DNA of 64,000 nucleotides from Gymnodinialimonas phycosphaerae (GTDB lineage Bacteria; Pseudomonadota; Alphaproteobacteria; Rhodobacterales; Rhodobacteraceae), in NCBI RefSeq assembly GCF_019195455.1, contig NZ_JAIMBW010000001.1:930001-994000 (forward strand), in the 5' to 3' direction. The translations under genes were made by a program, and so were the position numbers. The stretch's first letter is position 1. Every line of letters starts with the position of its first letter. Shown in pieces: positions 3,324 through 47,708 of this stretch. The notes under the pieces are model-generated. The model worked only from the letters and a program-made list of their open reading frames with translations. It did not search any database and was not told where the DNA came from.

Positions 3324-5312
3324 ATGATAGTAGAACTCGGACATTTCGCCCTGATCCTCGCCTTCACGGTGGCGGTCTTTCAGATGATCGTGCCCATGGT
3401 CGGTGCCGCGCGCGGCAATGCCGCGTGGATGGCCACCGCCGAGCCTGCGGCCAGCGCCCAATTCATTCTGGCCGCCGCGTCCTTCGGCGCTCTGACCTAT
3501 GCTTTCGTGACCTCGGATTTCTCGCTCAGCCTTGTGGTGGCGAACTCCCATACCGACAAGCCGCTGCTCTACAAGATTTCGGGCGTTTGGGGCAATCATG
3601 AGGGGTCCCTGCTGCTTTGGGTGGTGATCCTGACGCTGTTTGGCGCCTGTGCCGCCTGGTTCGGCAAGGGCTTGCCGCCAACGCTGCGCGCCCGCGTGCT
3701 TGCGGTGCAATCCTCGGTCGCCGTGGCGTTCTTCGCCTTCATCCTCTTCACGTCGAACCCGTTCCTGCGCCTGGCTTCGCCGCCGTTCAACGGGCAGGAC
3801 TTGAACCCGCTGTTGCAGGACCCCGGCCTCGCGTTCCATCCGCCGTTCCTGTACCTGGGCTACGTGGGCCTCTCCATGGCCTTCTCCTTCGCCGTCGCCG
3901 CCCTGATCGAAGGGCGCGTGGATGCCGCCTGGGGCCGTTGGGTGCGGCCCTGGACGCTGGCGGCCTGGATTTTCCTGACCATCGGCATCGGCCTTGGGTC
4001 CTGGTGGGCCTATTATGAGCTTGGCTGGGGCGGCTTCTGGTTCTGGGACCCGGTGGAGAACGCAAGCTTCATGCCCTGGCTCATCTCGGCGGCGTTGCTG
4101 CATTCGGCCATCGTGGTGGAAAAGCGCGAAAGCTTGAAAAGCTGGACCATCCTTCTGGCCATCCTTGCCTTCGGCTTCTCGCTGATCGGGACTTTCATCG
4201 TGCGCTCGGGCGTGCTGACCTCGGTCCATGCCTTCGCCAATGATCCCGAGAGGGGCGTTTTCATCCTGATGATCCTTGCGGTCTTCATGGGCGGTGCGCT
4301 CGTGCTGTTCGCCTTCCGCGCCGGCACGATGGAGGCCAAGGGCGTCTTCTCCACCGTCAGCCGCGAAAGCGGTCTGGTGGTCAACAACCTGCTTCTGGCG
4401 GTGTCGTGCTTTGTGGTCTTCATCGGCACGATCTGGCCCCTGATCGCCGAGATGTTCTTTGACCGCACGCTCTCGGTGGGCCCGCCGTTCTTCGATGCGG
4501 CCTTCACGCCCTTCGTGTTCGCCCTGTCGGTGGTCTTGCCCGTGGCGGCGATGCTGCCCTGGAAAAGGGCAAAGCTGGATCGGCCGCTTCGGGCGCTGAT
4601 GCCTGCGGCCGTTCTGGCCCTCGCCGTGGGGCTTCTGGCCTGGGCGATGTATACGGGCCGCACGGCCATTGCGCCTTTGGGCGTGGGCCTTTCGGTCTGG
4701 CTGGTGGCGGGCGCGGCGACGGACCTGTGGACGCGTACCGGGCGTGGCGCCATCGGCGGACGCCTTGCTCGCCTGACCCGGCTGCCTCGCGCTGATTGGG
4801 GCAAATCCATCGCCCACGCGGGCGTCGGCGTGACGATGTTCGGTGTGGTGACCCTGACCGGCTACCAGATCGAGGATATTCGCGTGGCACAGGTGGGCGA
4901 GCCCTATCAGGTCGGCGCCTATGAGGTAGAGTTGTTGGGCGTGGAAGAGAACGTCCGGGGGCCGAACTACCTCAGCACGATCGCGTCGGTCATGGTGCGT
5001 GATCCCGATACCGGGGCCGAGATCGCAACGCTTTCGCCCGAGCGTCGGATCTACCCCGTCGCGGGCATGCCCACGACCGAGGCAGGCATTGACGGCGGAA
5101 TGACGCGGGACGTCTACATCACGCTGGGGGATCCGCAGCAGAACGGCGGATGGGCGCTTCGGACGTGGATCAAGCCCTTTGCCAACTGGGTCTGGGGCGG
5201 CACGATCATCATGGCCCTTGGTGGGTTCCTGAGCCTTAGCGACCGCCGCTACCGCATGGCGGCTGGGGCGGCCAAGCAACGGCCTGTTGCTGGCGGAGTG
5301 CCCGCGGAATGA
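3324..5312 (+). CDS. ccmF: Cytochrome c maturation haem lyase subunit CcmF
   Basis: 662 residues, the usual length. A polytopic inner-membrane protein that, with CcmH and CcmI, ligates haem to apocytochrome c in the periplasm. Visible signatures are WGNHEGSLLLW near residue 90 and the tryptophan-rich haem-handling WWD domain (GLGSWWAYYELGWGGFWFWDPVEN, near residues 218-245). The C-terminal periplasmic beta domain and a final membrane segment before SLSDRRYR are also present. The stop overlaps the ccmH start (ATGA), so the two are translationally coupled. ccmE would normally lie upstream but is not here, and ccmI is 27 kb away. Confidence 0.96.
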   Translation: MIVELGHFALILAFTVAVFQMIVPMVGAARGNAAWMATAEPAASAQFILAAASFGALTYAFVTSDFSLSLVVANSHTDKPLLYKISGVWGNHEGSLLLWVVILTLFGACAAWFGKGLPPTLRARVLAVQSSVAVAFFAFILFTSNPFLRLASPPFNGQDLNPLLQDPGLAFHPPFLYLGYVGLSMAFSFAVAALIEGRVDAAWGRWVRPWTLAAWIFLTIGIGLGSWWAYYELGWGGFWFWDPVENASFMPWLISAALLHSAIVVEKRESLKSWTILLAILAFGFSLIGTFIVRSGVLTSVHAFANDPERGVFILMILAVFMGGALVLFAFRAGTMEAKGVFSTVSRESGLVVNNLLLAVSCFVVFIGTIWPLIAEMFFDRTLSVGPPFFDAAFTPFVFALSVVLPVAAMLPWKRAKLDRPLRALMPAAVLALAVGLLAWAMYTGRTAIAPLGVGLSVWLVAGAATDLWTRTGRGAIGGRLARLTRLPRADWGKSIAHAGVGVTMFGVVTLTGYQIEDIRVAQVGEPYQVGAYEVELLGVEENVRGPNYLSTIASVMVRDPDTGAEIATLSPERRIYPVAGMPTTEAGIDGGMTRDVYITLGDPQQNGGWALRTWIKPFANWVWGGTIIMALGGFLSLSDRRYRMAAGAAKQRPVAGGVPAE

Positions 5313-7422: not shown

Positions 7423-8076
7423 ATGTCAGTATCGACCAGCGCAACAACTCCTGTTCTTTGGCTGGGTTTCGGAGCCGCCATACTGGTCGTGATCCTAGAG
7501 TGTGCCTACGCCATAATCTTGGCTCTGGGGCTGTCGGCCCTAGAAACCCCCAACGATCCTATCAGCGATCCATTCTTTACGATCATGGAATTGCTTATCA
7601 TTATGATGATGCCCACGTTCGTCATTTTGACAATTGCCGTCCATACCATTTGCCAGTCGCAAAGAAGACATCACGCGCTCGCCGCCATAGTTTTCGTTAC
7701 TATGCTAACCACCATCACAACAGCTGTTCACGCATCAATTCTGCTGCTCAGCCGTGAAGCCGCCTTTGTTGACATGAAACACGTATTTTCATTTGAATGG
7801 CACTCTGTGGCATACGTCCTTGATGTTATGGCGTGGGACTTTTTCTTTGGTTTCTTTGCAATCTTTCTCGGGCTTTCGTTCGAACGAACGGGTCTCGAAT
7901 GGTGGATCAGGGTCCTTTTGATACTGAGCGGAGTTCTCGCGTTGGCGGGGCTTTTGGGGGCATCAACCGGGAACATGGACATCCGCAATATTGGGATAGT
8001 TGGCTATGTCGGCGTATTCACAATTTCGTCTGCGCTAATGGCCTCTTTGATGTGGCGGCGGCTCAGGCTTGCATGA
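7423..8076 (+). CDS. Hypothetical multi-pass membrane protein
   Basis: 217 residues from the ATG at 7423, which follows AGAGGTGCGAAA; an in-frame ATG at 7342 has no ribosome binding site. About six hydrophobic segments can be seen: GFGAAILVVILECAYAIILAL; LLIIMMMPTFVILTIAV; AIVFVTMLTTITTAVHASILL; DFFFGFFAIFLGLSF; WIRVLLILSGVLALAGLLG; GYVGVFTISSALMASL. I recognise no family. Base composition is clearly less GC-rich than the surrounding genes and codons are less biased to G/C at the third position, which hints at recent acquisition. It is convergent with livM. Confidence 0.7.
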   Translation: MSVSTSATTPVLWLGFGAAILVVILECAYAIILALGLSALETPNDPISDPFFTIMELLIIMMMPTFVILTIAVHTICQSQRRHHALAAIVFVTMLTTITTAVHASILLLSREAAFVDMKHVFSFEWHSVAYVLDVMAWDFFFGFFAIFLGLSFERTGLEWWIRVLLILSGVLALAGLLGASTGNMDIRNIGIVGYVGVFTISSALMASLMWRRLRLA

Positions 8077-8226
8077 AGTCGCTACATCGCGTGATCAACG
8101 CCAAGAACTATAACCAGTCCTTGGCGCAGCCGCAGCGAAATGGTGCTTTGTCCGCAGAGCCGACATTTCCTAGATTGGTCACGGGCGCGGTCGCTCGTGA
8201 GGGGCGCATGGTGCGCCGAGTCATAC

Positions 8227-9573
8227 CTACCGCTCGGGGATTAACCCGCGCGGGCTGAACCGCAGGACCAGCAGCAGGATCAGGCCCATGGTCAGAAGCC
8301 GCATGTGGGCCGCTGAATCCAGCAGGTGCTCGCGCAGCCAGTAGCCGTCGGCCATGCTGGCTGTCAGGCCCTGCATCAGCAACAGGCCAAGCGGTTCGAC
8401 CTGCACCCAAAGCCACCAGATCAGGAAACCGCCCAGAACCGCGCCCCAGTTGTTGCCGGAGCCGCCGACGATCACCATGACCCAGATCAGGAAGGTGAAG
8501 CGCAGGGGCTGGTAGGTGCCCGGGACAAGCTGGCTGTCGAGCGTGGTCATCATTGCGCCGGCCACCCCGCAGACGGCGGAGCCGAGGATGAAGATTTGCA
8601 GGTGCCGCTTCTTGACGTCCTTGCCCATGGCGGAGGCCGAAACCTCGTTATCGCGGATCGCACGCATCATGCGCCCCCAGGGGGAGTTCCAGGCCTTTTC
8701 CGACAGCCAGATCAGCAGGCCGAGGACGACGATGAAGAGCGCCGCGTAAAGCAGTTTGACGGTGATGGTAGAGGCGGTGACGGGATCGGCGTTGAAGCGC
8801 TCCACCAGGCCCAGGAAGCCCTCGTTCACTTGCAGGTCGACCTCGTAGGGGACGGGGCGGTCGATGCCGGTGACGTTCTTCACGCCGCGCGCCAGCCAGT
8901 CCTCGTTCTTGAGGATGGCGATGATGATTTCCGCGATGCCAAGGGTTGCGATGGCCAGGTAGTCCGAGCGCAGGCCGAGGGCGGTCTTTCCGATGATCCA
9001 GGCCACGCCAGCGGCCAGCAGGCCCCCCACGGGCCAGGCCAGAAGGATCGGCAGGCCAAGGCCGCCGAGAAAGCCGGTGGAGGCGGGATTGACGGATTCC
9101 ACCGCATCGACGCCCACGTCGAAGACGCGGCGAAAGACGGTGAAGCCGATCAGCAGCACGATTAGCATCGCGATCCCGCGCAGGCGTCCCTTGGGCATCG
9201 CCCCCCACAGCAGGATGGCGCCCACGATGGTGAGCGCGCCGAGGATAAGGCCCAGGATGGTGCGCAGGCCCCCCGCGCTCCAGGCCTCTGGCACCGGCTC
9301 AACCGAGATGAGGACAGTGGCGAGCCCGCCAAGGGCCACGAAGCCCATGACGCCGACGTTGAACAGGCCCGCGTAGCCCCATTGCATGTTGACGCCAAGC
9401 GCCATGATGCAGGAGATCAGGCCCATGTTGAAGATGGTCAGCGCCGTGTTCCACGACTGGATGAACCCGGTGCCGAGGAAAAGGACAGCGACAAGGGCGA
9501 ACAGCAGGATATTCTTGGTGTTCATTTGCGAGGGTGCGGGTGCGGTGGCCGCGGCGGTTTGTGTCTGGGTCAT
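8227..9573 (-). CDS. livM: Branched-chain amino acid/amide ABC transporter permease LivM
   Basis: 448 residues from the ATG at 9573, which overlaps the livH stop as ATGA. A longer frame to 9693 would run through livH and is rejected. It is a polytopic inner-membrane permease of the HAAT family with the characteristic segment GLFNVGVMGFVALGG, the conserved SDYLAIATLGIAEIIIAI stretch, and the ATPase-coupling loop near WGRMMRAIRDNEVSASAMGKD. With LivH it forms the channel that takes up hydrophobic amino acids or amides delivered by the binding protein at 14939-16135. It is the last gene of the operon. The substrate cannot be told from sequence. Confidence 0.93.
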   Translation of the reverse strand: MTQTQTAAATAPAPSQMNTKNILLFALVAVLFLGTGFIQSWNTALTIFNMGLISCIMALGVNMQWGYAGLFNVGVMGFVALGGLATVLISVEPVPEAWSAGGLRTILGLILGALTIVGAILLWGAMPKGRLRGIAMLIVLLIGFTVFRRVFDVGVDAVESVNPASTGFLGGLGLPILLAWPVGGLLAAGVAWIIGKTALGLRSDYLAIATLGIAEIIIAILKNEDWLARGVKNVTGIDRPVPYEVDLQVNEGFLGLVERFNADPVTASTITVKLLYAALFIVVLGLLIWLSEKAWNSPWGRMMRAIRDNEVSASAMGKDVKKRHLQIFILGSAVCGVAGAMMTTLDSQLVPGTYQPLRFTFLIWVMVIVGGSGNNWGAVLGGFLIWWLWVQVEPLGLLLMQGLTASMADGYWLREHLLDSAAHMRLLTMGLILLLVLRFSPRGLIPER

Positions 9574-10580
9574 ACCGATTTCCCCTTCATGATGCCGGTG
9601 GGTTTGAACAGCAGCACGATCAGCAGGATCCCGAAGGAGACCGCGAATTTGTAGTCTGTGGACAGCAGTTGCAGCAGGCCCTCGGGTTGCCAATCCTCTG
9701 GCCCCAGGTAGCCCACGACCTTGCGGAAGGCATAGGTGACGCCGACCTCGGAAAACGCGATGAGGAAGCCGCCGAGGATCGCGCCGAGCGGATTGCCAAG
9801 GCCGCCGACGATGGCGGAGGCGAAGATGGGCAGCAGAAGCTGGAAGTAGGTGAAGGGTTTGAACGACTTGTCGAGGCCGTAGAGGACGCCTGCGGTGGTG
9901 GCCAGCGCCGCCACAATGATCCAGGTCACCAGCACCACGCGGTCGGGGTTGATGCCCGACAGCAGCGCCAGATCCTCGTTATCCGAGAAGGCGCGCATGG
10001 ATTTGCCGGTCCGCGTGCGGTTGAGGAACCAGAACAGCAGGACCACGGCGATGATGGCGACGACAATCGTGATCCCTTGCGTCGTGCGGAAGGCCAGGCC
10101 TTCGTCGAGGCCCGTCATCTCGCGGAAGTCACGGGCGCGGATGATGAACCGCTCGCCATCGGCGAAGCGCTGATCATCGACGCCGATGAAGAAGCGGACA
10201 ATGCCATTCATGATGAACATGACACCAAGGGACGCGATCACGAAGATCACCGGTTTCGCCCTTTGTTGGCGGTAGAAGCGGTAGACGACGCGGTCCGTGC
10301 CAATCATCAGAAGGGCGGTGACGGCGATCCCAAGGGGCAGGGCCAGAAGGGCGGTGGGCAGGGGGCCGAAGCTGACGCCCGCCGCTTGCAGGCCCCACGT
10401 GCCGAAGATCGTGACCATGGTCCCGAAGGCCATGGTGTCGCCATGGGCGAAGTTCGAGAACCGCAAGATGCCATAGATCAAGGTCACGCCGAGCGCGCCA
10501 AGCGCCAGTTGCGCGCCATAGGCTGTGGCGGGCACGATGACGAAGTTCGTCAGTGCCACGAGAGCGTTGAGAAAATCCAC
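9570..10580 (-). CDS. livH: Branched-chain amino acid/amide ABC transporter permease LivH
   Basis: 336 residues starting with GTG at 10580, 10 bases after AGGGGAG. The family features are GVTLIYGILRFSNFAHGDTM near residue 33, RTGKSMRAFSDNEDLALLSGI (coupling helix) and GLGNPLGAILGGFLI. It pairs with LivM (4-base overlap downstream). In most liv operons livH and livM sit directly beside livG/livF. Here 2.7 kb holding six small secreted-protein genes separates livH from livF. The 125-bp gap before livH contains a small hairpin (AGCGCC/GGCGCT) just ahead of the ribosome binding site. Confidence 0.93.
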   Translation of the reverse strand: MDFLNALVALTNFVIVPATAYGAQLALGALGVTLIYGILRFSNFAHGDTMAFGTMVTIFGTWGLQAAGVSFGPLPTALLALPLGIAVTALLMIGTDRVVYRFYRQQRAKPVIFVIASLGVMFIMNGIVRFFIGVDDQRFADGERFIIRARDFREMTGLDEGLAFRTTQGITIVVAIIAVVLLFWFLNRTRTGKSMRAFSDNEDLALLSGINPDRVVLVTWIIVAALATTAGVLYGLDKSFKPFTYFQLLLPIFASAIVGGLGNPLGAILGGFLIAFSEVGVTYAFRKVVGYLGPEDWQPEGLLQLLSTDYKFAVSFGILLIVLLFKPTGIMKGKSV

Positions 10581-10705
10581 GCCAAGTCTCCCCTTAGATG
10601 CAGCGCCTTATGGTGGCGCTTGCGTTTGTGTTTGGTAGCGCGCGAATGCGCGATTGACCAGAAAAAGCCGCGTGCACAGGGCACAATGGGGGCCGAAAAT
10701 CGTGC

Positions 10706-11098
10706 TCAAAGTGTCACGCAGGTGCCGAAAACCGTAATCGTGCGCGCCGGGCCGTCGGATCCGTGGATCGACATGAGGGCCTGGCCGTCCTGGGCGATGG
10801 TCAACAGCTCTCCGATGGCATGGGGACCGGCGCTGGCATAGGCGGCCGTGGCGGCGTTGCCGGTGTCGAGCCGCGTCACCGGACGGTCGCCCGCCGGTGA
10901 GGTCAGGAACAGATCGCCTGCGTGATCAGCGGCGATGATCTGATAGGTGTCGTCGATGGCGAAGCAATCGATATTCTCGCATTGCACGGTCATCTGGCAG
11001 GTCCAGGGCTCGGCGTTGGCGGCCATCGGGGCAGCTGCGAGGAGCCCCATGAAGGGGGCGAGGAGGGGGTGGACGTGGCGGTTGACGTGGCGCTTCAA
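10706..11098 (-). CDS. Cys-motif small secreted protein, array member 6
   Basis: 130 residues from a TTG start at 11098 that overlaps the previous stop as TTGA; no ATG gives a full signal peptide. With this start the N-terminus is basic (MKRHVNRH), then hydrophobic, ending AAAPMAANA before EPWTC. The mature part has the array pattern: CQMTVQCENIDC (C-x5-C-x4-C), two short beta-like stretches with DG or GD turns, and FGTCVTL at the very C-terminus. The four Cys could form two disulfides in the periplasm. No family is recognised. It is the last array gene, 125 bp before livH. Function unknown. Confidence 0.75.
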   Translation of the reverse strand: MKRHVNRHVHPLLAPFMGLLAAAPMAANAEPWTCQMTVQCENIDCFAIDDTYQIIAADHAGDLFLTSPAGDRPVTRLDTGNAATAAYASAGPHAIGELLTIAQDGQALMSIHGSDGPARTITVFGTCVTL

Positions 11099-11493
11099 GA
11101 GCTGGCCCCATCGCTTGTCTCGCACCAATGGCGCGCGAAACGTGTGCTTACCCCGTCTTCTTGCAGAAGATGTTCGTGCAGGATGAACCGGCCATCCGAT
11201 GTCGTGCCTGCGGTGATCGCCGTAACCCGCGCGCCTTCCGGCGCGGTTGCAAGGGCGCTTTCCACCGTCTCGGCCACGATCAGCCAGACGTCGTTGCCGC
11301 GCGGGGCGTAGACCATCGTCCATTCCCCCTCGGTTTGTCGCAACACGAACGGCGGGGCGTGGCGATGGGGACGGCAGGCATCGGCGCTTAGGCATACCTC
11401 TGTCGTTATACAAAACAGCGGCGACGGCAGATCGGCCCGCGCTTGCGGTGTCGCCAGTGCGCTTACCAACACCATGCCCGCGGCACGTATCAC
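11095..11493 (-). CDS. Cys-motif small secreted protein, array member 5
   Basis: 132 residues from GTG at 11493, overlapping the member 4 stop as GTGA. The signal peptide is short (to PQARA). The mature protein starts DLPSPLF followed by CITTEVCLSADAC (C-x5-C-x5-C), and a single Cys lies in RHWCETSDGASS at the C-terminus. Between them is a beta-rich segment (EGEWTMVYAPRGNDVWLIVAE). It stops inside the TTGA shared with member 6, so its translation is likely coupled on both sides. It shares Cys spacing and length with the five others but has little other identity. Function unknown. Confidence 0.78.
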   Translation of the reverse strand: MIRAAGMVLVSALATPQARADLPSPLFCITTEVCLSADACRPHRHAPPFVLRQTEGEWTMVYAPRGNDVWLIVAETVESALATAPEGARVTAITAGTTSDGRFILHEHLLQEDGVSTRFARHWCETSDGASS

Positions 11494-11909
11494 TCCGCCA
11501 CCTCGCACGTGCCAAGACCCGTCACCACCCGCGTGCCCGCTTGCGGCTGGTGGCCTGTCACCACCACATGGCCCGTACTGTCGAAGGTCACCATCTGCGA
11601 GGATTGCGCGCGCTCATTCAGGAACATCAACGTGCGCACACGCACCTGCTCGACCGCGTCTTCGGGGGGCAAATAGTCCCCGATCAGCAGGTATTCCGAG
11701 GGCAGATCGTCGTTCCAGGTCACGCGCCAGCCGTCATCGCCTTCGACAATCGTGATTGTCTGGTCCCAGTCGCGGCAGCCGCCCACATCGGGGCAGAGGA
11801 TATCAAGCACACAGGTCCAGTTGACCGGTGCCTCTTGTGCCAGACCGCTGCGGGGCAAGGCGCTGAGGGGCAGGGCGAGCAAAAGGGCCAGGGGGGCAGC
11901 AAGGCGCAT
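11490..11909 (-). CDS. Cys-motif small secreted protein, array member 4
   Basis: 139 residues from the ATG at 11909 with GGAG upstream. A clear signal peptide ends at RSGLAQ or shortly before. The mature part has WTCVLDILCPDVGGCRDWD (C-x5-C-x5-C) followed by a strand-turn-strand (TITIVEGDDGWRVTW). It ends GLGTCEVAE with the fourth Cys. It opens the second half of the array after a 151-bp gap that contains two palindromes. An in-frame TTG just upstream of the ATG is a possible alternative start. Likely periplasmic; function unknown. Confidence 0.8.
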   Translation of the reverse strand: MRLAAPLALLLALPLSALPRSGLAQEAPVNWTCVLDILCPDVGGCRDWDQTITIVEGDDGWRVTWNDDLPSEYLLIGDYLPPEDAVEQVRVRTLMFLNERAQSSQMVTFDSTGHVVVTGHQPQAGTRVVTGLGTCEVAE

Positions 11910-12010
11910 CAAGGGGTCTCCGTTCCCAATGGCTGACGCAGGCCCGACGTTTCGTGCGATCGGGACAGTGTCCAGGGTGTCGTGGCGGGGTGAGGTTCAC
12001 ACAACGCCAC

Positions 12011-12026
12011 CACCGCGATCGCGGTG
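12011..12026. promoter_or_regulatory. 16-bp perfect palindrome in the array gap
   Basis: CACCGCGATCGCGGTG is its own reverse complement. It lies in the only sizeable gap in the array (11910-12060), together with a shorter dyad GGACAGTGTCC at 11963-11973. The pair could be an operator with an internal promoter for members 4-6 or a hairpin in the transcript; nothing identifies a binding protein. Confidence 0.4.
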
Positions 12027-12060
12027 CAGCGCAGGGCACGAAGGGGGGCGGCCCGCGCCC

Positions 12061-12429
12061 TCACGCGTCAGGCTCGCAGGTGCCGAAGTACGAGACCGAC
12101 TGCACGCCGCCCGCCGATGATAGATCCTGTTGCGTCATCACGGCCTCTCCTCCGCCCGAGACGGTCAGCAGGATCGTACTGTCGGCGCCGCTCTCGAACA
12201 ACACCGCAATGGCCGGGGCTGCGATGTGCGACAGCGGCGTGCCGAAGATCAGCCCGCCATCCGACACGAAGCTGTAGGCGCCCGACAGGACGTCGAAGCG
12301 GAAGGGCACGCCGGGGTGGGTCTGGCAATCGGTGAGGGGACTGCAAATCATGGTGAAGGTGCAGGCCAGGCCCACGGCCCCGGCCTGGCCCGGCAGCAGC
12401 GTGACAAGGATCAGCGCCAGCGCCCTCAC
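12061..12429 (-). CDS. Cys-motif small secreted protein, array member 3
   Basis: 122 residues from GTG at 12429, which overlaps the member 2 stop as GTGA; a GTG at 12441 is in frame but less well placed. The signal peptide MRALALILVTLLPGQAGA is followed by VGLACTFTMICSPLTDC (C-x5-C-x5-C). Beta-like stretches (FRFDVLSGAYSFVSDGG; DSTILLTVSGGG) lead to the C-terminal SYFGTCEPDA. The ending FGTCE resembles members 4 and 6, which supports common descent. Probably periplasmic; function unknown. Confidence 0.78.
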   Translation of the reverse strand: MRALALILVTLLPGQAGAVGLACTFTMICSPLTDCQTHPGVPFRFDVLSGAYSFVSDGGLIFGTPLSHIAAPAIAVLFESGADSTILLTVSGGGEAVMTQQDLSSAGGVQSVSYFGTCEPDA

Positions 12430-12854
12430 AGGGCCTCGCACGAGAGCACGAAATACTGCGGCCGCAACACCGGCGCGCCGGTGTCGGGGTGTCGGGTCTG
12501 GACGTGGACGGCAAAGCGGCGGGCAGGGGCGTCAACGGGCAGGTCGACCAGGAAGGTGCGGCGGAAGTCCGGGACTTCCGGCGGTAGGAGGCCTTCTGCG
12601 AGGGTTGCGAAATGCTCGATCACGGCCAGATCCGCGTCATCGCGGCCCATTCGGGTGCCGTCCGGTGTGATTTCCAGAAGCAACGCGCCCAAGGAAGGCG
12701 TCGTGCCGCACGCCCCGGTGTCGGTGCAGGTTTCGGTCATCTGGCAGAGGCCGCGATAGATCAGCGGCGCGGTCTCCTCCAGCGTGGCATGGGCTGCGGT
12801 GGTCGCCAGCAGGGTTGCGGTGGCGCAGGAAATGAAGGTCTGATTCCCTGACAT
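12426..12854 (-). CDS. Cys-motif small secreted protein, array member 2
   Basis: 142 residues from the ATG at 12854, sharing one base with the member 1 stop (TGATG). A signal peptide ends TTAAHA before TLEE. The mature protein holds GLCQMTETCTDTGACG (C-x5-C-x5-C) and ends YFVLSCEAL. The middle has a strand-turn element (LLLEITPDGTRMG) and a proline-rich loop (LLPPEVPDFRRTFLVDLPVDAPA). It is the longest member. An upstream extension of the frame to 13115 has no credible start and overlaps member 1. Function unknown. Confidence 0.78.
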   Translation of the reverse strand: MSGNQTFISCATATLLATTAAHATLEETAPLIYRGLCQMTETCTDTGACGTTPSLGALLLEITPDGTRMGRDDADLAVIEHFATLAEGLLPPEVPDFRRTFLVDLPVDAPARRFAVHVQTRHPDTGAPVLRPQYFVLSCEAL

Positions 12855-13243
12855 CACGGGGCGCCGAAACTTTGCGTGCAGACGGCTTGCGACTTCAGCG
12901 CGTCGGCGCCTGTCGGATCGCCGCGCCGGTCGGGATGCAGGCGCAGGGTCGCGTAGGTGATCATGTCGTCGGACGGGTCGTCGCGCAGGGACAAGAGCAC
13001 TGCGCCATCCGTAGCGGAGCGGGCCAAGAGGTGCAGCGGCTCGGACCGCGCGGTCGGAAGGGGCGGCATGATGTCCGCGGTCACAGGCCGGCCTGTGGCG
13101 CCCGGTGTGGTCCACAGGCGAATGGGTTGATCGCCGATGCCAAAATCAAGCGTCACGGGTAACGGGGCCCGGTCGGTGCAGGCGCCGTCCGGCGCGCAGA
13201 AGGTAGCGAAGAGGCACGTCCGAAAGACCGCGACGGCTTCCAT
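12854..13243 (-). CDS. Cys-motif small protein, array member 1 (no signal peptide seen)
   Basis: 129 residues from ATG at 13243, four bases after the livF stop. The protein begins MEAVAVFRTCLFATFCAPDG and reaches the Cys triplet (C-x5-C-x5-C) by residue 22, leaving no room for a signal peptide; the last Cys is in AVCTQSFGAP. Either this member stays in the cytoplasm, or it starts further upstream inside livF, where I see no convincing secretion signal. The middle is a beta-rich region with DG and GD turns like the other members. The short spacing to livF makes co-translation with the transporter ATPase likely. Function unknown. Confidence 0.7.
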   Translation of the reverse strand: MEAVAVFRTCLFATFCAPDGACTDRAPLPVTLDFGIGDQPIRLWTTPGATGRPVTADIMPPLPTARSEPLHLLARSATDGAVLLSLRDDPSDDMITYATLRLHPDRRGDPTGADALKSQAVCTQSFGAP

Positions 13244-13247
13244 GGCG

Positions 13248-14078
13248 TCAGCCCCCCAGGAAGCTTTTGCGGACCTCCGGGTCGGCCAGCAGTTCCTTGC
13301 CGGTGCCGGAGAACGCATTGCGGCCCTGGACCAGCACATAGCCTTTGTCCGCGATTTCAAGGGCTTGGCGGGCGTTTTGTTCCACCATCAGGATCGGGAT
13401 GCCGGTGCGGGACACTTCGATGATCCGGTCAAAGAGCTCGTCCATGACGATGGGCGAGACGCCTGCGGTGGGCTCATCCAGCATCAGGACCTTGGGCTTG
13501 GTCATCAGCGCGCGGCCCACGGCGACCTGCTGGCGTTGCCCGCCGCTCAGTTCTCCGGCGGCCTGGGCGCGCTTGTCGCGTAGGATCGGGAAGAGGTCGA
13601 ACACCTGCTCCATCGTGGCGCGGTAGTCGTCCTTGCGGATGAAGGCCCCCATTTCGAGGTTTTCTTCGACCGTCATCGAGGTGAAGATGTTGGAGGTCTG
13701 CGGCACGAACCCCATGCCCGCCGCCACGCGGGCCTGAGGCGACAGCGCAGAGATATCCTGCCCGTCGAGCATCACATGGCCTTCGCGCAGGTTCAGCATC
13801 CCGAAAACGGCTTTCATCGCGGTCGATTTGCCCGCGCCGTTGGGACCGACGATCACGGCGATCTCACCGGGGTTCACGGCGATGGTGCACTCGTGGAGGA
13901 TGTCGGGGCCTTTGCCATAGCCGCCGGTCATGGCCTCGCCGATCAGGAATGGATGATCACCGTCCACGGCAATCGCCTTTCCGCCGGGGCGGATCGGATC
14001 GCCCATCGGGGCGGGACCGGGTTTCGTGATCGACCGGTCCTTGTTGCCGCGATCGTTTTGGTAAGGATTGTCGGTCAT
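13248..14078 (-). CDS. livF: Branched-chain amino acid/amide ABC transporter ATPase LivF
   Basis: 276 residues. Walker A VGPNGAGKST, Q-loop VPQTSNIF, ABC signature ELSGGQRQQVAVGRAL and Walker B VLMLDEPTAGVSP are all intact. The family ending VLVQGRN and GTGKELLADPEVRKSFLGG marks LivF. There is an unusual hydrophilic N-terminal extension of about 45 residues before the first strand (NPYQNDRGNKDRSITKPGP). The ATG overlaps the livG stop (ATGA). It energises LivHM from the cytoplasmic side. The next gene, four bases downstream, is the first member of the Cys-motif array. Confidence 0.94.
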   Translation of the reverse strand: MTDNPYQNDRGNKDRSITKPGPAPMGDPIRPGGKAIAVDGDHPFLIGEAMTGGYGKGPDILHECTIAVNPGEIAVIVGPNGAGKSTAMKAVFGMLNLREGHVMLDGQDISALSPQARVAAGMGFVPQTSNIFTSMTVEENLEMGAFIRKDDYRATMEQVFDLFPILRDKRAQAAGELSGGQRQQVAVGRALMTKPKVLMLDEPTAGVSPIVMDELFDRIIEVSRTGIPILMVEQNARQALEIADKGYVLVQGRNAFSGTGKELLADPEVRKSFLGG

Positions 14079-14866
14079 GCCCCCGCCTCTTCCAACTGGT
14101 CCTTGTTCTTCAGGCCGGTGCCCAGGTACGCCTCGATCACTTGATCGTTGGCCTTGATCTCGTCCAGCGTGCCTTCGGCCAGCACGTGGCCCTCGGCCAT
14201 GCAGATCACGGGGTCGCAGAGGCGGCCGATGAAATCCATGTCGTGCTCGATCACGCAGAAGGTGTAGCCGCGTTCCTTGTTGAGGCGGATGATCGCGTCA
14301 CCGATGGTGTTCAGGAGCGTGCGGTTCACGCCTGCGCCGACCTCATCCAGGAACACGATCTTGGCGTCGACCATCATCGTGCGGCCCAGTTCCAGCAGCT
14401 TCTTCTGCCCGCCCGAGACCATGCCCGCCGGTTGCTCGGCCAGATGCTCGATCGTCAGGAACTCCAGGACCTCATCGGCCTTTGCACGCAGCGCGCGTTC
14501 TTCATCGGCAATGCGTTTGCGGCCAAACCAGGTGTTCCACAGCGACTCGCCGGATTGGCCTTCCGGGACCATCATCAGGTTCTCGCGGCAGGTCATGGAC
14601 GAGAATTCGTGGGCGATCTGGAAGGTGCGGAGCAGGCCCTTGCCGAACAACTCGTGCGGCGGCAGGCCGGTGATGTCTTCGCCATCCATCACGACGCGGC
14701 CCGAGGTGGGGGGCAGAACGCCCGCGATGACGTTGAACAGCGTCGTCTTGCCCGCGCCATTGGGGCCGATCAGGCCGGTGATCGACCCGGTCTCGATCCG
14801 CAGGCTGGCGCCATCCACGGCATGAAAGCCGCCAAAATGTTTGTGCAGGTCGTGTACTTCGATCAT
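14075..14866 (-). CDS. livG: Branched-chain amino acid/amide ABC transporter ATPase LivG
   Basis: 263 residues. Walker [11 protein letters not shown], then the LivG-type insertion between Walker A and signature ([20 protein letters not shown]), signature [14 protein letters not shown], Walker [13 protein letters not shown] and switch His in [10 protein letters not shown]. The signature motif shows SGGQKK, as in other LivG proteins. Start at 14866 fits the first beta strand, [13 protein letters not shown]. It is separated from the binding-protein gene by a hairpin terminator/attenuator, so it is probably expressed at a lower level than the binding protein. It forms a heterodimer with LivF. Confidence 0.94.
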
Positions 14867-14881
14867 GGGCGCGGCCTTTGC

Positions 14882-14915
14882 AAAAAAGATACAGCCCGGC
14901 GTGATAACCGGGCTG
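14882..14915 (-). terminator. Attenuator-type hairpin between livK and livG
   Basis: A perfect 8-bp stem CAGCCCGG/CCGGGCTG (14908-14915 with 14892-14899), an 8-nt loop and a T6 run on the minus strand lie just after the binding-protein gene. Such partial terminators commonly keep the soluble binding protein in excess over the membrane parts. Confidence 0.75.
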
Positions 14916-14938
14916 CACCTATATCAATGGGTGATCGA

Positions 14939-16135
14939 TCAGCGGTAGCCCGCGACCGTCAGTTCCCCACCCGAGATTTCGATCTCACGGTAGTTACCGG
15001 CAGATTCGCCGCCACCGATGAGTTCCACGGCAGAGGCGCCGACGTAGTCGACCTCTTCACCGTTGGCGATCATCTCAAGCGCCATACCAAGCTGGCCCGG
15101 CAGGATCTCGGTGCCCGGTGCGTTGGCGACGTTCATGATTTCACCCATGTAGTCGGCGGCGTTGCGGGATTCCGCAGCGGCCATGGCGAGCATGATGAGG
15201 GCTGCGGCGTCGTAGGATTCCGCAGAGAACGGCGAGGTGCCGTCAAAGCCCGCTTCCTCGGCCATCGCCTGGTAGAGGCCTGCGCCTTCGCTGTCGGTGC
15301 CGGGGTTCTGGCCGAACGACCCGTCGATGTCGGAGCCGAAGTTGTCGACCAACGCCTGGGAGACCATGCCATCAGGGAAGACGAAGGTGTCGAACGCGCC
15401 CGTGTCGAGCGCGGCCTGGATCACGCCAGAGCCGCCCTGGTCCACGTAGCCCGCCACAACCAGTGCGTCGCCCCCGGCGGAGGCCAGTGCGCCAACCTCG
15501 GCCGAGTAATCCGCGCGGCCGTCTTCATGGGCCGCCGACAGCGTCACGGTGCCGCCTGCTGCTTCAAACGCGGCAGAGAAGGCATCGGCCAGGCCCTGGC
15601 CATAGTCGTTGTTGGTGTAGGTCAGGGCAACGGTGTCGATCCCGCGCTCCATGATGATCTCGGCCATCACGACGCCTTGGCGCGCGTCAGACGGCGCGGT
15701 GCGGAAGAACAGGCCGTTGTCCTCGGCGGTCGACAGACCCGGCGAGGTGGCGGACGGCGAGATCATGACCATGCCGTTCGGGACGGCGACGTTGGCAAGG
15801 ATCGAGCCGGTCACGCCAGAGCAATCGGCACCCACGATGCCGTGCACACCGTCAGATGTGATCAGACGCTCGGCGGCGGCTTGGGCGGCGGAGCTGTCAA
15901 CGCAGGTGCTGTCTGCGCGGATCGAGGTGACGGACGCGCCGCCAAACAGCAGGCCGCTTTCGGTCACTTCGGCCATCGCAAGCTCTGCCCCGTCGCCCAT
16001 GGCAGGCGTGATGGATTCAATCGGGCCGGTGAAGCCCAGGATCACGCCAAGCGTGACGTCGCCCTGGTGGCCGTCGGCTGCCGCGAAACCGGTCAGTGCC
16101 ATGGATGCGGCGGATGCCAGCAAAAACTTCTTCAT
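14939..16135 (-). CDS. Periplasmic substrate-binding protein (LivK/HAAT type)
   Basis: 398 residues from the ATG at 16135 (GGGAG eight bases upstream); an ATG eight codons earlier has no ribosome binding site. A signal peptide MKKFLLASAASMALTGFAAA is followed by GDVTLGVILGFTGPIESITP, the classic start of type I periplasmic binding proteins of the branched-chain amino acid/amide family. GIVGADCSGVTGSI, NDYGQGLADAF and DALVVAGYVDQGG are conserved core segments. Two Cys in the first lobe (DSTCVDSS and GADCSG) probably form the usual disulfide. First gene of the operon. Ligand unknown: an amino acid, amide or aromatic acid are all possible. Confidence 0.92.
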   Translation of the reverse strand: MKKFLLASAASMALTGFAAADGHQGDVTLGVILGFTGPIESITPAMGDGAELAMAEVTESGLLFGGASVTSIRADSTCVDSSAAQAAAERLITSDGVHGIVGADCSGVTGSILANVAVPNGMVMISPSATSPGLSTAEDNGLFFRTAPSDARQGVVMAEIIMERGIDTVALTYTNNDYGQGLADAFSAAFEAAGGTVTLSAAHEDGRADYSAEVGALASAGGDALVVAGYVDQGGSGVIQAALDTGAFDTFVFPDGMVSQALVDNFGSDIDGSFGQNPGTDSEGAGLYQAMAEEAGFDGTSPFSAESYDAAALIMLAMAAAESRNAADYMGEIMNVANAPGTEILPGQLGMALEMIANGEEVDYVGASAVELIGGGESAGNYREIEISGGELTVAGYR

Positions 16136-16358
16136 AAGATATCTCCCTGATGTGGACATTGACTGCCCTTGATGGCGAAGAGATTAGCCGTGCGTTTGCC
16201 AAAGGGGAAGAGCCCTTTCACAGGACTGATACGGAAGCCGAAACCGGGGCTGAATGGCCGTTGCGATCCCGGCTTTGCGCGTCAGGTGGCCTTGCGCCGG
16301 GGCGGCCGATTTGGTCGAGTGCACGCACAGACTTGTTGCGCGCGAAGGAGAGCCGCCC

Positions 16359-17120
16359 ATGCCCGCCCCGATCAACACCCTCAAGGCCGCGCTTGCACGC
16401 GGCGAGATGCAGCGTGGGCTGTGGTTGAACCTGCCCGGTACGGTAACGGCGGAAATGGCAGGGCGTGCGGGGTTTGATTGGTGCCTTGTGGATGGGGAGC
16501 ACGGGCCATGGGACCCCACGGCGATCCGCGCCCAACTGGTGGCACTTGCGGCAACGCCGACGCCCGCCGTGGTGCGCGTGCCCGTGGCCGAGGAATGGGT
16601 GATCAAGCAGGTGTTGGATCTGGGCGTGCAGACGGTTCTGATTCCCATGGTGAATTCAGCGGCGCAGGCGAGGGCCATGGTGCGCGCCTGCCGTTACCCG
16701 CCCGAAGGCACCCGGGGCATGGGCGCAATGGTTGCGCGTGCGGGCGCGTTCGGGGCGACGTCGGACTATCCCGCCACGGCAAATGACCAGATCTGTGTGC
16801 TGGTGCAGGCCGAAAGCCGCGCAGCGATCGACGATCTGGAGGCGATTGTGGCCACGGAGGGGGTCGATGGCGTGTTCATCGGCCCCGCCGATCTGGGGGC
16901 CGACATGGGATATCGCGATGATCTGATGAACCCGGAATTGTGGCAGGTGATCGATGACGGAATCGCAAAGATCCGGGCGGGCGGCAAATCGGCGGGCATC
17001 ATCGTGAGCGGGCCGGAGATGGAGGCCCGCGTCACGGCGGCGGGCGTGAATTTCCTGGGCTGCGGCGGTGACGCGGGCGTGTTGCAGGCGGGGCTAGCGG
17101 CCTTGGCGGGGGCGCGATGA
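16359..17120 (+). CDS. HpcH/HpaI-family aldolase (2-oxo acid aldolase)
   Basis: 253 residues from ATG at 16359, with AAGGAG nine bases upstream. Divalent-metal class II aldolase fold. Catalytic and metal motifs are visible: DGEHGPWD (His base and Glu region), VRVPV with the conserved Arg, LIPMVNSAAQA, VQAESRAAIDDLEAI (metal Glu) and VFIGPADLGADMG (metal Asp). Family members cleave 4-hydroxy-2-oxo acids such as 4-hydroxy-2-oxoheptanedioate to pyruvate and an aldehyde in the cytoplasm. It overlaps the following mutarotase-like gene by ATGA, so a sugar-acid or aromatic breakdown step is possible. The substrate is not predictable. Confidence 0.9.
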   Translation: MPAPINTLKAALARGEMQRGLWLNLPGTVTAEMAGRAGFDWCLVDGEHGPWDPTAIRAQLVALAATPTPAVVRVPVAEEWVIKQVLDLGVQTVLIPMVNSAAQARAMVRACRYPPEGTRGMGAMVARAGAFGATSDYPATANDQICVLVQAESRAAIDDLEAIVATEGVDGVFIGPADLGADMGYRDDLMNPELWQVIDDGIAKIRAGGKSAGIIVSGPEMEARVTAAGVNFLGCGGDAGVLQAGLAALAGAR

Positions 17121-18184
17121 CCGGAGGCTCGCCCACCATTGATCAGGGGGTCCGCATCGCCCACGGGGATGCGGAAGCGTTGATTGACCCCTCGGTCGGC
17201 AATATCCCCCATTGGCAGGTCGCGGGACGGGTGCCGCTGCATGTGGCGCCGTGGCGGTACGAGGCAGAGGTCCAGGATGACCCTGACGTGGCGCTGGTCG
17301 ACAAGCGCCTGGCGGGTGATTTCCTTTGTATGCCGTTCGGGCGCGATGACGTCCACGACGGCCCGATCCATGGGCCCACCGCTAATGATCCGTGGCATTT
17401 GGTGGCCCAGGATGCTGCCACCGCGCGGTTCGCGCTTGGCACCGGCGTGCTTGGTGCCCATGTCACCAAAGAGGTCCGCCTTGTCGGGCCCTGCCTCTTG
17501 CAAACCCATGTGATCGAGGGCGGCGCAGGCGAGGTCACTTTCGCCCACCACCCGATGACACGCATGGCCGAGGGCGGGCGCTTGTCGTTCAGCCCCAAAC
17601 GTGCCGCCCTGACCGATCCCGTGGCGCAGCACGCGGGCGCAAATCTGTGGGCGCTCAACCAGTTACGGGGCGACCTTGATCTGGATTGCGAAGATGGCAG
17701 CACGTGGAACCTGGGCACCTATCCTGCCGGAAACGTGGTCGAGGATTTCTGCACCCTGGCCGAGGCGCGGGGCCGCGCGCTGGGGTGGACCTGCGTGATG
17801 CGTAATGCCGAAGACGACATGCTGATCGTCTTGAAGGACCCGCAGATGCTGCCTGTCACGATGCTTTGGGTTTCCAACGGCGCGCGGGATTTTCCGCCGT
17901 GGAACAGCCGCCATGTGGGGGTGTTGGGGATCGAGGATGGCTGTGCCATGGGCGGCGAGGGGCTGCGCGCGGCCTGCGCTGACAATCGCCTGACGGCCAT
18001 GGGCGTGCCCACGGTGATCGTCCTTGGCGGGCGTCACGTCATTCGCCACGCCATGGTGTCCCTGCCGCGCCCGCCTGGCTGGTCCGAGATGGCCGATATC
18101 ACGCTACAGACCGGCACATTGCGGCTGCGCGAGGCAGGCGGTGCAACGTTGGAAATTCCATTCCCGGAGGGCCACTTTGACTAG
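17117..18184 (+). CDS. Mutarotase-like (aldose 1-epimerase superfamily) hypothetical protein
   Basis: 355 residues, start overlapping the aldolase stop (ATGA). No signal peptide or membrane segment. The protein reads as a beta-sandwich with repeated short strands. GPIHGPTANDPWHLV, TKEVRLVGPCLLQTHVI and TMLWVSNGARDFPPWNSRHVGVLGIEDG resemble the DUF4432/galactose-mutarotase-like fold, with His residues (HGPT, HH) in the places where that superfamily has catalytic His. Coupling to an HpaI-type aldolase fits a sugar or sugar-acid pathway. I assign only the superfamily, and that with moderate certainty. Confidence 0.65.
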   Translation: MTGGSPTIDQGVRIAHGDAEALIDPSVGNIPHWQVAGRVPLHVAPWRYEAEVQDDPDVALVDKRLAGDFLCMPFGRDDVHDGPIHGPTANDPWHLVAQDAATARFALGTGVLGAHVTKEVRLVGPCLLQTHVIEGGAGEVTFAHHPMTRMAEGGRLSFSPKRAALTDPVAQHAGANLWALNQLRGDLDLDCEDGSTWNLGTYPAGNVVEDFCTLAEARGRALGWTCVMRNAEDDMLIVLKDPQMLPVTMLWVSNGARDFPPWNSRHVGVLGIEDGCAMGGEGLRAACADNRLTAMGVPTVIVLGGRHVIRHAMVSLPRPPGWSEMADITLQTGTLRLREAGGATLEIPFPEGHFD

Positions 18185-46028: not shown

Positions 46029-47708
46029 ATGAAACTCTCCGCGATGTTCGGGTCCAGCTCTGGGACGATCGGGGCGACGGCTGTCGGTGCCGTGGTGCTT
46101 GTGGCGGCGGCCATCGGGATCACCGTGTTCAACGCAGACGACACGCCGCCCGCAGAGCAACCCACCGTTGCCACCGTCGAAGAGGCCCCCGACACGCCAG
46201 ATGCGCCCTACACGTCCAGTGCAGTCGTCACGCCCAGTGCAGTCGTCACGCCCAGTGCAGGCGTCACCCCAGATGCTCCCGCCACAGCCGTCGCGGTGTC
46301 AGAGCCGCCCCCCGAAGGACCCCTGGAAACCGCCCCGACGTGGCTTGTGCCGCATCTGGACCTGGTGCGCGTGGACCCTGAGGGCCGCGCGGTGATTGCC
46401 GGGCGCACCTCGCCCGATCTGAATGTGGCGCTTATGCTGGATAGCGTCGAGATCGCCGAGACGCGCGCCGACGGGGCAGGGGCTTTCGTTGCATTGCTGA
46501 GCCTCCCCCCGTCAGAAAGCCCGCGTGTTCTGAGCGTCGAGGCGCGTCTGGCCGACGGGACCATGCTGGCGGGGGCCGAGACGGTGCTGATCGCCCCCTT
46601 CACCTCGCTCGCCCCCTCTGAAGCGGTTGCTGCCATTGTCGCCGAAGAACCCACCGCAACAGCAGGGCCGCCCGCCATAGCAGAGCCGCCCGTCGAAGAG
46701 GTCGCAGCCGCGACGCCCACGGACCTCGCCGATCCGGAAGGACCGGCACCTGCCGCAGCGCAGCCGCCCGAGATAACGCCAGCGCCTGCCGCCCCCGGCG
46801 AGGTTGCCGCCGCCGACGAGGTTGCCGCCGCCGACGAGGTTGCCGCCGCCGACGAGGTTGCCGCCGCCGACGAGGTTGCCGCCGCCGACGAGGTTGTCGT
46901 CCCCGACGAGGTTGCCGCCGCCGACGAGGTTGCCGTCCCCGACGAGGTTGCCGCCGCCGATGTGCCCGACGCCCCGGAGACACTTGCTATCGCCGAGGCA
47001 CCCGCCGCTCCCGCCGACCCCGAAGTGCCTGCTGCCCCCGACGCGTTGGCCGCAGGACCGAGCGCGCCCGCCGCGCCGTCGGTTGCCGCCTCGACCGCGC
47101 CCGTGACCGACGTCACGCCACCATCTGCCGTGCAGCCCGCCCGTACCACAGGACCTTCGATCGTGATCGCCAGCGCCGAGGGCCTGCGCGTGGTGCAAGG
47201 TCCGGCGGCAGAACCTGCCGTACAGACCTCTGTGCGTCTCGACGCGATCTCTTATGATGCCGAAGGTGCGGTGATGTTGGCCGGGCGCGGACCTGCGGCG
47301 GCGAATATCCAGATCACGCTGAACAACCAGCCGATCCAATTGGGCGAAGTGGGCCCGGAGGGGGATTGGTCACTGCAACTGCCCGATGTCGACCCCGGCA
47401 CTTACACGCTTGCGGTGACGGAACTGGCCGAGGACGGCTCGGCGGCCAGCCGCGTCGAGACGCCGTTTCTGCGAGAAGACCCCGAACGGGTCGCCGAGGC
47501 GCCTGCCCAGGCGGCCTCTGGCATCGACGTGATTACCGTGCAGCCCGGATTTACTTTGTGGGGTATGGCGGAAAACACCTTTGGCAATGGCATCCTTTAC
47601 GTGCAGATCTTCGAAGAGAACCGCGACCAGATTCGCGATCCGAACTGGATTTTCCCCGGTCAGATTTTCCGCATGCCCGATCTGGACCCGGCAATCGGCG
47701 AGAACTAG
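46029..47708 (+). CDS. LysM-domain protein with Pro/Ala/Glu repeats
   Basis: 559 residues. One N-terminal membrane segment (TIGATAVGAVVLVAAAIGITVF, about residues 12-35) anchors it with the rest in the periplasm. A long Ala/Pro/Glu/Asp-rich region contains six-residue tandem repeats EVAAAD/EVVVPD at DNA 46800-46961. Two similar small beta domains follow the same pattern (VRVDPEGRAVIAGRTSPDLNVALMLDS and VRLDAISYDAEGAVMLAGRGPAAANIQITLNN). The C-terminus is LysM-like (VITVQPGFTLWGMAENTFGNGILYVQIFEENR), which binds peptidoglycan. AGAGGT lies before the ATG and a 7-bp GC hairpin (45956-45974) is in the leader. Probably a cell-wall-linked structural protein. Confidence 0.85.
   Translation: MKLSAMFGSSSGTIGATAVGAVVLVAAAIGITVFNADDTPPAEQPTVATVEEAPDTPDAPYTSSAVVTPSAVVTPSAGVTPDAPATAVAVSEPPPEGPLETAPTWLVPHLDLVRVDPEGRAVIAGRTSPDLNVALMLDSVEIAETRADGAGAFVALLSLPPSESPRVLSVEARLADGTMLAGAETVLIAPFTSLAPSEAVAAIVAEEPTATAGPPAIAEPPVEEVAAATPTDLADPEGPAPAAAQPPEITPAPAAPGEVAAADEVAAADEVAAADEVAAADEVAAADEVVVPDEVAAADEVAVPDEVAAADVPDAPETLAIAEAPAAPADPEVPAAPDALAAGPSAPAAPSVAASTAPVTDVTPPSAVQPARTTGPSIVIASAEGLRVVQGPAAEPAVQTSVRLDAISYDAEGAVMLAGRGPAAANIQITLNNQPIQLGEVGPEGDWSLQLPDVDPGTYTLAVTELAEDGSAASRVETPFLREDPERVAEAPAQAASGIDVITVQPGFTLWGMAENTFGNGILYVQIFEENRDQIRDPNWIFPGQIFRMPDLDPAIGEN
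46800..46961 (+). repeat. Nine 18-bp tandem repeats inside the LysM gene
   Basis: Nine in-frame units of GAGGTTGCCGCCGCCGAC or close variants, coding EVAAAD five times, then EVVVPD, EVAAAD, EVAVPD, EVAAAD. The near-identity of DNA as well as protein suggests recent slippage expansion. Confidence 0.92.

Follow-up and report, generated by a model that had tools for sequence, protein, structure and literature searches.

Variable arrays of small cysteine-patterned, putatively exported proteins inside a conserved liv importer operon of Rhodobacteraceae

Six small genes between livF and livH

In a 64,000-nucleotide stretch of the Gymnodinialimonas phycosphaerae genome (contig NZ_JAIMBW010000001.1, forward-strand positions 930,001 to 994,000; hereafter the window), the interval between livF and livH, two genes of a conserved operon for an amino-acid importer common in marine bacteria, is filled by six small open reading frames (ORFs) on the minus strand. 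These genes, g1–g6, code for proteins of 129, 142, 122, 139, 132 and 130 residues that appear to form one diversified family, and arrays of such genes recur in the same operon of related bacteria. The array opens 4 bases behind livF with g1 (12854–13243; Cys 10, 16, 22 and 122), followed by g2 (12426–12854; Cys 37, 43, 49 and 139), g3 (12061–12429; GTG start; Cys 23, 29, 35 and 118), g4 (11490–11909; Cys 33, 39, 45 and 135), g5 (11095–11493; GTG start; Cys 28, 34, 40 and 124) and the livH-side member g6 (10706–11098; TTG start; Cys 34, 40, 45 and 127), which ends 125 bases before livH. Near the protein start, g1–g5 share the motif C-x5-C-x5-C and g6 has C-x5-C-x4-C, and the last cysteine of all six lies 3–8 residues from the C-terminus. 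Four of the five junctions overlap, g1/g2 by 1 base and g2/g3, g4/g5 and g5/g6 by 4 bases each, and 151 bases separate g3 from g4. Packing, cysteine pattern and overlaps are as a first-pass annotation had described them, and the ORF coordinates confirm its account of the array.

The cysteine pattern of the array exceeds chance. Among the 347 stop-to-stop ORFs of at least 90 codons in the window, seven match it, and six of these are g1–g6; the seventh (46622–47257, plus strand) is a Cys- and Arg-rich low-complexity ORF that overlaps longer ORFs on both strands and is a chance match. For a broader control we used 79 liv loci picked by livH, independently of the cysteine pattern, among the 80 best of at least 587 livH matches; this choice favours close relatives of the window. 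The pattern occurs in 59 of the 130 ORFs ending in the livF–livH gap of these loci versus 16 of 4326 elsewhere in them.

Upstream of the array lie livK (14939–16159), which codes for a periplasmic binding protein related to Leu/Ile/Val-binding proteins, and the genes for two ATP-binding subunits, livG (14075–14866) and livF (13248–14078). Downstream, livH (9570–10580; GTG start) codes for a permease (BPD_transp_2), and livM (8227–9573), named by its position and its matches in relatives, codes for a second permease whose ATG, read by eye, overlaps the livH stop. All five genes are on the minus strand. Within the g3–g4 gap, a 51-codon ORF (11909–12064, minus strand) overlaps the g3 stop and the g4 start and may be a decayed seventh member coupled to both neighbours; the case is weak and the ORF may be due to chance. 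Other genomes of the genus carry an extra member between g3 and g4 (L127_5, L128_4). A 14-pair hairpin followed by a T run, resembling a terminator or attenuator, lies between livK and livG (14887–14920, minus strand); it has the longest stem of five such sites, where shuffled sequences gave 4.7, and would allow an excess of livK over the remaining operon products. A promoter scan of positions 8000–17200, fitted to the sigma-70 consensus only, found no site against a mean of 1.1 in shuffles.

One family without a named relative

Pairwise BLAST comparison of the six array proteins with 89 called gap ORFs (95 proteins in all) places 68 in a single cluster that includes g3, g4 and g6. The remaining three, g1, g2 and g5, fall outside this cluster and join it via profile–profile comparison only. 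For the latter we used A3, a 40-row profile whose rows were chosen by cysteine pattern from livF–livH gaps, so that its cysteines and final G-x-C are invariant by construction. Compared with A3 by hhalign, the g2 group (15 rows) scores a probability of 94.4. The g5 group (5 rows) reaches the same value, in part across the signal peptide, and the g1 group (4 rows) reaches 92.0 across 72 columns free of signal peptide; the one control, livH against A3, scores 0.2. These are single-pair values that, except for g1, rest partly on signal-peptide columns, and the link of g5 to the family is therefore moderate. Taken together, the comparisons support g1–g6 as one diversified family that is old at least within Rhodobacteraceae in the wide sense, in line with the ancient, diversified family proposed at first pass.

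The first reading had recognised no known family, and searches of Pfam, NCBIfam, PADLOC, PHROGs and PDB sequences likewise name no relative. Matches to Pfam-A and NCBIfam are scattered and weak, the best (5.1e-4) linking a single member out of 40 to 'His-rich protein BRANT'. Among 5343 candidates (database of 5.8 billion), A3 matched 63 proteins; none has a Pfam domain, and those that carry a source name are listed as hypothetical or uncharacterized, one antitoxin label excepted. The nearest named proteins to g4 are from Jannaschia and Gymnodinialimonas. Among the papers listed in searches of an open-licence library, titles and abstract beginnings yielded nothing on these genes, and two passages of PMC11921356 deal solely with livK, livF and livH expression. 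The family and its arrangement, variable arrays of putatively exported proteins inside a conserved importer operon, match no named family or system searched; the biochemical role may still turn out to be of a known kind. Many 'hypothetical proteins' can thereby be tested together as a single family, probably with one fold.

Distribution and tie to the liv operon

With few exceptions, members of the family map to the chromosomal livKGF-HM operon, most often to its livF–livH gap, as supported by searches with two profiles. The earlier profile, A1, was built from the six window proteins only and is free of the selection bias of A3. At E values up to 0.1 it has matches in 16 other genomes of 100, 13 of them inside the liv operon; those outside are in G084 and, weakly, in G047 (E 0.028) and G060 (E 0.09), and G011 has one further weak match away from liv. 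Profile A3 gives 137 matches at E 1e-5 or better in 112 of 394 genomes of the same family. In the window genome, its matches at E 1e-5 are g3, g4 and g6, and g1 is matched in part at 8.6e-5. Because divergent members are missed, the count of 112 in 394 genomes is a lower bound. A strong livH is present in 354 of the same 394 genomes.

Positions relative to livH were compared for 83 matches in 60 genomes, a comparison that left out 54 matches in 52 genomes. Eighty of the 83 (59 genomes) lie upstream of livH on the same strand at a median distance of 78 bp, which fits the expectation, raised with the first-pass annotation, that homologues would cluster with liv genes. Two of the other three are in G084, and one is directly behind livH in G312. 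Of the best 30 loci, 28 contain both livF and livH, one has livH only and one (G084) neither. In a class-wide sample, matches occur in 2 of 385 genomes, the window genome and another member of the Rhodobacteraceae, so that in these searches the family is seen only in Rhodobacteraceae in the wide sense.

Rare members occupy other junctions of the operon: livG–livF in L097 and L176, and the downstream side of livH in two loci, L171, whose member stands between livH and livM, and L094, where the contig ends. The last two loci are probably close relatives, since they carry the same member as far as L094 reaches. No livH–livM gap reaches 250 bp in the 78 loci with livM. The livG–livF gap is at least 250 bp in 8 of 79 loci; L097 holds the Cys family there, and six hold a different family. 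These different exported proteins of ~180–230 residues (L049, L061, L074, L091, L094 and L095), of which two were tested against Pfam without a match, are a second kind of insert in the same operon.

Insert variation and turnover

The array is a recurrent arrangement rather than a local oddity. In 54 of the 79 loci the livF–livH gap is at least 150 bp, up to 2414 bp, and 53 of these contain 84 small, tiled ORFs of 80–200 residues, with no ORF called in L068; in the other 25 loci the gap is below 150 bp, so that in many species the importer does without array proteins. Wrong or doubtful gene calls affect L036_4, L083, L104 and the g4 and g6 starts in L140. The largest array in the genus has nine ORFs in 3.6 kb (L127). 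Across 137 junctions between livF, inserts and livH, neighbours come within 12 bp of each other in 108 and share 1 or 4 bases in 64, and because members are packed with start/stop overlaps, they are probably co-translated.

Presence or absence of inserts requires 21 changes on a protein tree of livG, livF and livH, close to the mean of 21.5 for shuffled labels (238 of 500 shuffles were as low). The tree was built by a quick method and 24 of its 76 inner branches are starred; well supported branches alone force 11 changes. Within multi-gene loci, the livH-side gene is the one most like the single-gene type in 14 of 19 cases versus 8.2 expected, so that an old livH-side gene may have been the starting point from which arrays extended upstream. 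The subfamily order g2, g3, g4, g6 is kept in 13 genomes of the genus, and orthologues of g1 occur in 3 of 12 other genus loci. Decayed copies are represented by L136_3 and L137_3, shortened or frame-disturbed versions of the extra g3–g4 member of L127 and L128. In three Ruegeria loci (L100, L105, L106) the DNA of the first cassette is unalignable while its flanks align, and in L105 ~50 bp of a livH 5' end (5125–5177) lie directly behind the first cassette gene. Together, this remnant and the unalignable cassettes between aligning flanks point to replacement by recombination. The remnant is visible only by comparison between genomes; when gaps were searched for copies of their own liv ends, two matches of chance length were found. 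These observations support an array set that turns over through gene birth, decay and the replacement of cassettes next to a conserved importer.

Foreign composition was rejected as a rule for the inserts, as insert GC content minus liv GC content averages +0.008 over the 84 ORFs; 8 ORFs fall below −0.05 and 17 above +0.05, and third-position GC of inserts is lower by 0.077 on average.

Export, fold and disulfides

Nearly all family members look exported, as judged from their N-termini. A hydrophobic N-terminus with an A-x-A site is present in 74 of 84 insert ORFs versus 123 of 458 control ORFs, the controls being included because the gene caller prefers hydrophobic N-termini. The initial proposal that all six array proteins are secreted held for g2–g6, which have predicted signal peptides, but not for g1, in which a hydrophobic N-terminal stretch lacks an A-x-A site and the first conserved cysteine is residue 10, leaving no room for a cleaved signal peptide.

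Structure prediction gives a confident eight-stranded barrel for g6 and an all-beta fold with weak barrel matches for g2. The g6 model matches many barrels, in Foldseek none at E 0.001 or better. The members are predicted, strongly for g6 and more weakly for g2, to share a small eight-stranded beta-barrel; of the common fold sought in the first-pass annotation, the all-beta character appears in both models, but the shared fold is well shown for g6 only. The two-disulfide layout proposed there is favoured by cysteines kept and lost among members, which, partly by eye, suggest C1–C4 and C2–C3 bonds. Outside the cysteines, A3 has no invariant polar residue (the best conserved one, a His, is found in 31 of the 40 rows), which makes a binder likelier than an enzyme.

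Selection and comparison with the importer

Sequence identity and the ratio of nonsynonymous to synonymous substitution rates (dN/dS) were compared for g2, g3, g4 and g6. Genus median identities are 0.38 for g2, 0.55 for g3, 0.66 for g4, the most conserved of the four, and 0.57 for g6 (13 species each), compared with 0.95 for livK (11 species), 0.92 for livG (12), 0.91 for livF (12), 0.94 for livH (13) and 0.84 for livM (13). By the NG86 method, with several dS values near or above 1, dN/dS is 0.06–0.55 for members in seven pairs and 0.02–0.16 for liv genes. The members are real genes under weak purifying selection that diverge much faster than liv. Within the genus LivK and LivH are nearly invariant; LivM varies at its N-terminus and at about residues 105–165, its most variable part apart from the N-terminus, and 255–265, and the spacing across the 105–165 part has a median of 124 both with inserts (51 loci) and without (24 loci).

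Possible roles of the array proteins

The mechanism that fits best, which we put forward tentatively, has the proteins bind in the periplasm and so guard or tune the importer. The exported barrels would act stoichiometrically rather than as enzymes, would be made in step with the importer and would work at LivK/LivHM, binding at or near its periplasmic face so as to protect or tune it; alternatively, they would bind outside agents that use the importer as a receptor, such as toxins translocated through permeases or phage factors. Lineages would thus keep different sets, and many importers would do without them. The operon tie, seen in the 80 of 83 matches upstream of livH and in members at two further liv junctions, argues for work at the importer or a need of importer dosage, and turnover suggests that the bound target varies and that the importer works without the barrels. 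It is conceivable, if unlikely, that the liv operon is a modular shield locus whose lineage-specific, disulfide-stapled barrels block toxins or phage factors entering via the permease. If so, a housekeeping transporter operon would hold a polymorphic immunity repertoire renewed by duplication, decay and cassette replacement. In passages of PMC9086364 and the abstract of PMC9291907, the ATP-binding cassette (ABC) permeases MetI, RbsC, GltJ/GltK and DppB/DppC are receptors of contact-dependent toxins, which makes permeases known entry ports for delivered toxins; a link from these to the array genes would be one of analogy.

Several observations weigh against a guarding or shielding role. The receptors that those texts list do not include LivH. 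PADLOC assigned none of 40 members to a family, and no link between the array proteins and a toxin or defence gene was found; the neighbours of the array in the window are livF and livH, with no adjacent cognate toxin gene (the rest of the genome was not searched for toxins). The dN/dS range of members does not show positive selection, no co-evolving importer surface was seen in the genus comparison of LivK, LivH and LivM, and the kept order of g2, g3, g4 and g6 suits stable tasks as well as an arms race. The g1 protein lacks a typical export signal. Members also occur apart from liv. In G084 (L027, 9647–13787), a g4-like and a g6-like gene neighbour ccmHF and a gene for an enoyl-CoA hydratase, at a position occupied by liv in the window and in 9 of 80 loci. 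The G084 liv operon is elsewhere, with a gap of 5 bp, so that its members remain where the operon left. In G135 (L175, 4512–8379), three tandem Cys-patterned, putatively exported ORFs, two found by profile and the third by eye, are flanked by regulator-like and large acylase-like genes (named by eye); no livH was found at E 1e-130 and no liv genes were found near them. Members can thus outlive their neighbourhood.

This survival away from liv would suit a different account, in which inhibitors or other envelope proteins (for example, against proteases or lysozyme-like enzymes) are unrelated to transport and ride on a strongly and widely expressed operon. Start/stop coupling and the separate exported family of ~200 residues at livG–livF in 6 of 79 loci speak for it as well; random landing, however, predicts other operons too, yet nearly all compared matches are at liv, and no inhibitor family was matched, so that we regard this account as doubtful. 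Our doubt extends to capture of ligands, whereby lipocalin- or avidin-like barrels would pass hydrophobic amino acids, peptides or signals to LivK, widening the importer's range according to niche. The middling structure scores are shared with many unrelated barrels, so that the fold reveals no ligand; moreover, presence does not follow the liv tree, and LivK is nearly invariant in the genus. That junk or unrelated ORFs simply gathered at a neutral insertion hot spot is highly improbable. Some insert ORFs are indeed unrelated or pattern-free (L049_1 and L104_1, for example), and the livH remnant between the cassettes of L105 records recombination there, but the single BLAST cluster of 68 of 95 proteins, the enrichment of the cysteine pattern (59 of 130 versus 16 of 4326 ORFs), dN/dS below 1 and the subfamily order kept in 13 genomes all argue against it.

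In many genera, the liv operon carries undescribed, fast-evolving, mostly exported proteins (as predicted) at fixed junctions. Should they guard the importer, this would be a new way of placing immunity; should they capture ligands, Leu/Ile/Val-type transporters would have an accessory of a new kind. Under either reading, fast-evolving, putatively exported genes turn over within a conserved operon.

Comparison with known systems

The small meander beta-barrel predicted for the array proteins would resemble that of lipocalins and avidin-like proteins; the array proteins differ in cysteine pattern and have no Pfam or NCBIfam match. Lipocalins carry a G-x-W motif in the first strand; this motif is not in the A3 alignment, where the consensus is C-x-F-T. 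Other small exported beta-barrels are the C-type lysozyme inhibitors MliC/PliC and the Inh-type bacterial protease inhibitors. MliC/PliC is absent from the Pfam matches of 40 members at E 1 or better, and no Pfam match to either kind of inhibitor occurs in g1–g6 or the 40 members. Chain E of the BT2261–2264 SusCD complex (PDB 5fq6/5fq7) is 8–10% identical with a middling Z score, which shows no kinship, and BT2261–2264 is a Bacteroides outer-membrane system, unlike the array proteins; oligopeptide ligands of BT2261–64 are mentioned in passages of PMC7782687. As expected of accessory subunits of Liv, the array genes lie inside the liv operon, but the importer does not need them, as the 25 of 79 loci with no livF–livH insert indicate. 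Toxin-receptor permeases (MetI, RbsC, GltJ/GltK and DppB/DppC), in the passages cited above, offer a precedent for an inner-membrane receptor and would give a reason for placing a shield beside a permease gene.

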